The notes under the pieces were generated by a model that was given only the letters and a program-made list of their open reading frames with translations, was not told where the DNA came from and searched no databases. From Brevinema andersonii (GTDB lineage Bacteria; Spirochaetota; Brevinematia; Brevinematales; Brevinemataceae): a stretch of 32,513 nucleotides of DNA. This document shows, piece after piece, positions 24,914 through 26,207 of the stretch (its first letter is position 1; each line of letters starts with the position of its first letter). The stretch spans positions 1 through 32,513 of the forward strand of contig NZ_FOKY01000011.1 of NCBI RefSeq assembly GCF_900112165.1, given 5' to 3'. The position numbers and the translations under genes were made by a program.

Positions 24914-26207
24914 TTATTTTTTTATTAATTCTGTTATTTTTTTTAATCCTTCAAAAGTTTCGTCTATAGCATTGGCTGATTGAATGACATTTGTTTTTAA
25001 TATCTCCTTTAAATATTCTTTAATGAGTGGGATTTTTTGTGGAATGCCTCCTGCCAATAAAAGGTTATTATAATGTAATCGATAATCCTGTAGAATTTGA
25101 ATATATTGATTAATGTAGCATTTTAGTAAAGAACTGTAATAATTTTGCAGAGTAAAAGAATATTCGTTTATATTTAAAATGCTTGCTCTCTCTCTCTCTC
25201 TCTCTCTCTCTCTCTCTCTTGTATGCTCCTTCAAAGATCGCAAGATTAATATCTAACGTTGCAGTTTCCAACGATCCTAAATTTAATGTTTGAAATAAAT
25301 CCCATGCGTTTTTGTATGAATTTCCTATATTTATACACTCTTGGATAAATCCAATAAACTGATTCAGTACACGTCCTGACGGAATATGCGTGATAATTGA
25401 TAAATTCTCATTATTAAAATAGGGGCGTTGTTCTATAGATGCGTATGGATCTAATTCTGATATTTGTGCTACTTGTGACCCGGTTCCTAAATTGAAAATA
25501 ACATCATTTTTTTTCACCCCACTTCCTAACAGAGCGCATTGATTATCGCCTACTGGTGTATATATTGAAATGTTATGGATACTGCCAACAATTTCTATAG
25601 CAGATGTTGGCATGTTAGTAGTGATTTCGTATCCTAACTCATTACAGAGTCGAAAAAATTCTTCATAAGGCTGGTTTTGGTAAATATCCCAAATTCCTAA
25701 ACCTGCCAATAAAGTATTGTGTATTTTCGAACCTATAATAATTTCCGGTAAAGAAATTATTTTTATTTTTTTAGGAAGATCCTGTGTACGTAATAAATGT
25801 AAAAGATTGATTGCCGGAAGTCCGTTTTTAATGTTCATTCCGGTTTTTTCTCTGAATGTTGGCAATCTTTTACGTGCCCATTCATACGTAGAAATGTTTC
25901 CTACTACATCTGCTGCCCTGTTGTCCTGCCAACTGATATAATTAGTAAGAAAATTATTATTACAGTCGCATAAAGCAAATCCATGCATTTCCGAGCAAAT
26001 AAAAAATTTTTTAATGGAGAAATTATGATAAGTATTCAGGATTTCTTGAAATAAATCCTGAATTTTTTGTAGTGAAATTTCATAATAATGAGAAGCCCTT
26101 AATTCTTTAGCTACGGGAGTAAAGTTTTGTATTTGAATATATTGTCCATTTGTAAAAATTGCTGTCTTAATACGTGAAGCACCAAAATCAATAAACAGAT
26201 AGGGCAT
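24914..26207 (-). CDS. FGGY carbohydrate kinase, frameshifted at AG repeat (OFF)
   Basis: The N-terminal three quarters (MPYLFIDFGASRIKTAIF, FICSEMHGFAL, YISWQDNRAAD, VGDNQCALLGSG, NLGTGSQVAQIS) is a clear FGGY sugar kinase running from 26207 to an AG tract at 25186-25219. With 17 units the frame then reads SKHFKYKR and stops at 25110. The true C-terminus (SILNINEYSFTLQNYYSSLL ... LLLAGGIPQKIPLIKEYL, the family's end region) is intact in another frame down to the TAA at 24914. The two halves join when the unit number is a multiple of three (15 or 18), giving a protein of 431 residues at 18. Substrate is unknown; the SEMHGF/SWQDNR segments resemble sedoheptulokinase-type members. Start overlaps the upstream stop (TAATG) with AAGGAGG upstream. 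Confidence 0.88.
25186..25219. repeat. Dinucleotide tract, 17 AG units in kinase gene
   Basis: Thirty-four uninterrupted bases of CT on the plus strand. After codon TAC the coding strand reads A then 17 AG then CAAGC. The C-terminal frame needs a unit number divisible by three, so this copy is one unit short (or two too long). Confidence 0.97.

Follow-up and report, generated by a model that had tools for sequence, protein, structure and literature searches.

Simple repeats located late in coding regions have been described as a source of C-terminal phase variation in Helicobacter canadensis (PMC2823697) and Neisseria gonorrhoeae (PMC5320596); none of the H. canadensis candidates was a dinucleotide (PMC2823697). 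Slipped-strand ON/OFF switching of surface glycans is exemplified by Haemophilus influenzae with its tetranucleotide loci (PMC2651432), and tprA of the spirochaete Treponema pallidum is known to carry a CT dinucleotide frameshift (PMC3656149). Furthermore, long simple repeats have been reported to go with host dependence (PMC4060949). A literature search found no paper linking phase variation with FGGY kinases or with Brevinema.

The locus considered here lies in Brevinema andersonii, in a window of 32,513 nucleotides that is the whole of one contig (C11) of a 1.50 Mb genome assembled in 39 contigs. The 16S sequence and the flagellar genes of this genome agree with a probable placement in Spirochaetota, class Brevinematia. 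A putative FGGY sugar kinase gene in this window is interrupted by a perfect AG tract, giving the following features:

25110 to 26207, minus strand: FGGY kinase ATG frame, 365 amino acids, reading across the tract (Pfam FGGY_N, 2.2e-13)
25186 to 25219, minus strand: perfect (AG)17 tract, detected by TRF as a perfect CT array of 17.0 units on the plus strand
24914 to 25186, minus strand: kinase C-terminus in the next frame, comprising 90 residues and a stop codon, with the conserved LAGGIPQKIP segment

Read on the minus strand from 26207, the ATG frame reaches a stop codon at 25110-25112, 24 residues past the tract. The frame one base on stays open past the tract for 90 residues; its end, at 24914-24916, leaves eleven bases to the next gene. 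Joining the two frames takes one unit more or two fewer, and with one unit more the product is 431 amino acids long. In the third phase a stop follows after about three residues; depending on the phase, the protein therefore extends about 3, 24 or 90 residues beyond the tract. As the unit length is not a multiple of three, one phase specifies the intact full-length kinase, and at 17 units the last fifth of the gene is out of frame. The tract and both frames are direct observations, and TRF together with frame reading confirmed the first-pass annotation in its tract length, its coordinates and its phase arithmetic (ON at 15 or 18 units, OFF at 17). Based on the dinucleotide frequencies of the window, about 3e-14 AG arrays of at least 16 units are expected in 1.5 Mb, whereas the same model predicts about 1.5 placements of five-unit arrays; the expected number of (AG)17 placements in the genome is about 2e-15.

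Because the tract lies at residue 330 of about 431, the out-of-frame state is a 365-residue protein, which is the layout of C-terminal phase variation. As in H. canadensis and N. gonorrhoeae, a simple repeat is found late in the coding region, the C-terminus differs by phase, and several such genes are located in or near glycan loci. However, the cases in those species are mostly homopolymers, whereas an AG unit is involved here and 90 conserved residues are gained in the in-frame form; moreover, read-level variation was demonstrated there, while the kinase tract is known from one assembled sequence. The H. influenzae loci are similar in that the repeat is found in glycan biosynthesis genes with one productive phase in three, but they differ in having a tetranucleotide rather than an AG dinucleotide, and the present tract is situated 77% along a gene for a sugar kinase, not a transferase. 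Like tprA, the kinase is a spirochaete gene in which the number of CT/AG units sets full-length versus truncated product, although tprA carries 3 or 4 units between strains and the glycan enzyme examined here carries 17.

Four kinase homologues without a tract were found beside relatives of the upstream gene, a member of the DHQ synthase (DHQS) family:

L026: 430 amino acids, from a Gastranaerophilales MAG, the closest homologue
L027: 454 amino acids
L028: 445 amino acids
L029: 437 amino acids

The joined kinase reading aligned across the tract with all four. Identity of the joined reading to the L026 homologue was 39% overall, with 36.6% before the tract and 46.5% over the 86 residues after it. 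By this comparison the out-of-frame end is real coding sequence, conserved at least as well as the rest of the gene. Since intact homologues span the junction, the ATG frame and the C-terminal frame represent one gene, and the alternative of two unrelated ORFs was rejected. Separate translation of the C-terminal piece was also rejected, as its frame contains no methionine, and hence no ATG start, past the tract, making independent initiation unlikely. Neither half showed a second lesion, both being open and conserved. These results bear out the first-pass annotation, which had read FGGY motifs before the tract and a conserved FGGY end in the other frame as halves of a single 431-residue product.

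The assignment to the FGGY family is consistent with several lines of evidence. The conserved stretches DFGAS, GDNQ and NLGTGSQ are retained before the tract, and FGGY_N scored 50.8 bits, above the Pfam cut-off of 28.8. FGGY_C had no Pfam match in the joined reading or in any of the four intact homologues; its absence from the intact homologues as well indicates a divergent C-lobe or subfamily rather than damage. The kinase scored below all equivalog cut-offs, and phmmer of the 5' ORF alone against the PDB gave no match, while a profile built from the kinase alignment did match in the PDB. A model of the L026 homologue, of modest confidence (mean pLDDT 61.5, pTM 0.57, built with four sequences) and used for its overall fold match only, matched glycerol, gluconate and xylulose kinases over the full length. 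The kinase thus resembles these FGGY carbohydrate kinases in its N-lobe motifs and overall fold, but differs in its length (about 430 versus about 500 residues) and in the lack of an FGGY_C match. Taken together, the data support a predicted FGGY-type sugar kinase of a divergent subfamily. The tract is positioned in a loop of variable length among the homologues, which are about 6-8 residues shorter there, and the corresponding loop of the L026 model is a low-confidence stretch (residues 326-339). Within the same family, order and class, the genomes searched yielded no relatives of the kinase.

The late position of the tract also raises the question of whether the 365-residue form is itself functional, or whether ribosomal frameshifting yields both forms from one tract length. 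Such repeats have been described as changing C-termini and not as stopping expression (PMC2823697), which favors a functional truncation. On the other hand, all four homologues keep the C-terminal segment, and the missing methionine disfavors separate initiation of the second part. To our knowledge, dinucleotide runs are not usual ribosomal frameshift signals. Either variant is therefore considered very improbable. The designation of the kinase as switched OFF holds insofar as the gene is one unit out of frame at a repeat of a slip-prone type; it does not describe a classical 5' ON/OFF switch, since OFF here probably denotes a truncated 365-residue product that is made and is predicted to be inactive, not an absence of expression.

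The kinase is embedded in a cluster of putative sugar biosynthesis and transfer genes. The cyclase, the SDR oxidoreductase, three family 2 glycosyltransferases and RfbH lie upstream, and the NeuB-family synthase, the FkbM methyltransferase and the TPP enzyme lie downstream. Features without a tract include:

20689 to 22530, minus strand: acetolactate-synthase-like TPP enzyme, member of a cassette in L027-L030
23814 to 24902, minus strand: NeuB-family synthase carrying a SAF domain and preceded by its own AAGGAG site
26207 to 27337, minus strand: AroB-related putative sugar-phosphate cyclase (DHQ synthase family; TIGR04425, 341.8 bits)
27334 to 28008, minus strand: SDR oxidoreductase of the conserved cassette
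31192 to 32511, minus strand: RfbH (deoxysugar biosynthesis) at the contig end, 707 bits against a cut-off of 423

The score of the cyclase against TIGR04425 is under the cut-off of 400, so the protein is related to this family and is not filed as a member. The NeuB-family synthase is 71% identical to one in L026. The gene order SDR-DHQS-FGGY is common to L026-L030, with the TPP enzyme preceding it in L027-L030 and RfbH before the TPP enzyme in L029; retention of this order suggests that a pathway to an unusual sugar has been conserved. We take the combination of RfbH with the acetolactate-synthase-like enzyme to be reminiscent of yersiniose-type branched sugars, and the AroB-like cyclase presumably recalls carbocycles. 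Rfam detected no RNA family in the window. An identical rfbH (100% over 432 amino acids) ends three contigs (window 31192-32511, L044:7340-8635 and L045:8697-9992), pointing to a repeated rfbH as the site where the assembly breaks. The 5' side of this operon may include the upstream AG tracts of C23 (20 units) or of C26 (39.5 units).

Two further genes of the cluster contain AG tracts:

22648 to 23814, minus strand: FkbM-family methyltransferase with an AG tract, assembled in frame
22712 to 22756, minus strand: perfect AG tract of 22.5 units in the FkbM gene
30312 to 31244, minus strand: family 2 glycosyltransferase, ATG frame, with a stop 8 codons past its AG tract
30339 to 30390, minus strand: perfect AG tract of 26 units in the glycosyltransferase gene
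30131 to 30340, minus strand: out-of-frame C-terminal part of the glycosyltransferase, 69 residues, resembling the paralogue at 29099-30103

The FkbM frame runs past its tract into an FkbM-like end and is therefore in frame, the only one of the three window tracts to be so. Alignment of the out-of-frame glycosyltransferase part with the C-terminus of the paralogue scored 58, a value reached by none of 500 shuffles (27.6 +/- 5.2). The AG tract is the only lesion in this glycosyltransferase, the same one-lesion pattern as in the kinase, and each of the two genes is one unit short of its joined frame, in the same phase. Long dinucleotide tracts are prone to stutter, and the shared one-unit deficit, along with a fragmented assembly that breaks at a repeat, would be in line with assembly or amplification stutter at tracts whose true majority length is in frame; the kinase would then be on in the sampled cells, and the locus might still switch. 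However, the 34 bp kinase tract is easily spanned by one short read, and the longer FkbM tract was assembled in frame, showing that assembly errors are not uniform. Stutter is accordingly regarded as unlikely.

The kinase gene is likely subject to slipped-strand phase variation at a late, C-terminal tract, and the assembled sequence would represent its OFF phase. In the proposed mechanism, the (AG)n tract would gain or lose units by slipped-strand mispairing at replication, and we infer that its length would differ between cells. One phase in three would give the full-length FGGY kinase of about 430 residues, with the Arg-Glu run encoded by the tract forming an extra surface loop. In FGGY kinases, ATP binding is assisted by the conserved C-terminal GG-P segment. 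The two remaining phases would yield a protein that is cut soon after the tract and, lacking this segment, is presumably inactive. The kinase probably feeds a phosphorylated sugar to the adjoining AroB-like cyclase and SDR, with the product entering a surface glycan, and the tracts in the kinase, glycosyltransferase and FkbM genes together could allow several glycan forms to be displayed. Kinase phase probably has little effect on translation of the NeuB-family gene downstream, because this gene has its own AAGGAG site.

A search for perfect AG tracts of at least 14 bp identified 13 in the genome, all of 32-79 bp. By our reading of the annotations, glycan genes contain or adjoin nine of the 13; the remainder are found in the pstB-phoU interval, upstream of a permease gene, next to tRNA genes, and in DNA without an assignment. 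The presence of tracts in intergenic DNA and near housekeeping genes indicates that AG growth is not confined to switch genes. This distribution, along with an in-frame fraction in the window (one of three) that equals chance expectation, would be compatible with neutral microsatellite growth that broke the kinase for good, leaving a young pseudogene and no switch. Such an origin is nevertheless quite improbable, somewhat more so than stutter, given that neither half carries a second lesion, that the out-of-frame end has kept its conservation, that two genes of one cluster share the same single-lesion pattern, and that 9/13 tracts are associated with glycan genes. Loss of mismatch repair as the cause of the tracts was unsupported: the window encodes MutL, and the genome has a MutS frame of 847 codons, so repair loss does not explain the instability.

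Tract lengths in the genome are split: beside the 13 of 32-79 bp, a single A-starting tract measures 10-13 bp, and the range of 14-31 bp is empty. The genome has essentially no long GT arrays. In two cases (L038:5259-5294 on C1 and L043:5725-5782 on C20), exactly 7 bases separate the end of an AG tract from the ATG that follows, which is the expected place of a ribosome-binding site; the genes concerned are a class II aldolase-like gene and phoU. On C27, a capsule-type glycosyltransferase (L046:3351-4319) ends in a 17.5-unit AG tract; as each of the three frames reaches a stop shortly beyond it, the tract alters the last residues only.

Across the phylum, AG tracts of at least 24 bp were found in only 8 of 393 genomes with an A-starting pattern that misses tracts beginning with G (as in G280), with ten in the present genome and one or two in each of the others. 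Relatives in the same family had no A-starting AG tract of at least 24 bp. G280, a genome of the same phylum and another class (2.2 Mb, single contig), contains 13 perfect AG tracts of 13-48 units (L055-L070), each placed immediately behind an ATG and leading into a long frame (about 700-810 amino acids where read to the end). These frames comprise a paralogous lipoprotein-like family with RCC1-like repeats, in which the ATG is in frame with the long frame in 3/13 copies and out of frame in 10/13. The family looks like a phase-variable surface protein family, independent of the glycan cluster genes described here. In a genome of the same class as B. andersonii (G017), two related lipoprotein-like proteins that bear a HELGH zinc-protease-like motif (L024 and L025) have AG tracts of 9-10 units close to the N-terminus.

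Judged from sequence comparison, the kinase switch is well-supported but unproven, and the kinase would constitute a further case of a known switch type. A broader and decidedly tentative proposal is that this spirochaete uses AG tracts as its main switch system, combining precursor kinase, glycosyltransferase and methyltransferase in one cluster. An unusual surface sugar, branched or carbocyclic, would thereby be switched at the level of its precursor, and some tracts would in addition act at the ribosome-binding sites of downstream genes. The wider pattern (three tracts in the cluster, 13 in the genome, and the independent G280 family) outweighs the single kinase case. Standard annotation would split the switchable surface-sugar genes of this lineage into fragments. 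Together with G280, these findings suggest that AG dinucleotide tracts are a recurring route to surface variation in this phylum.
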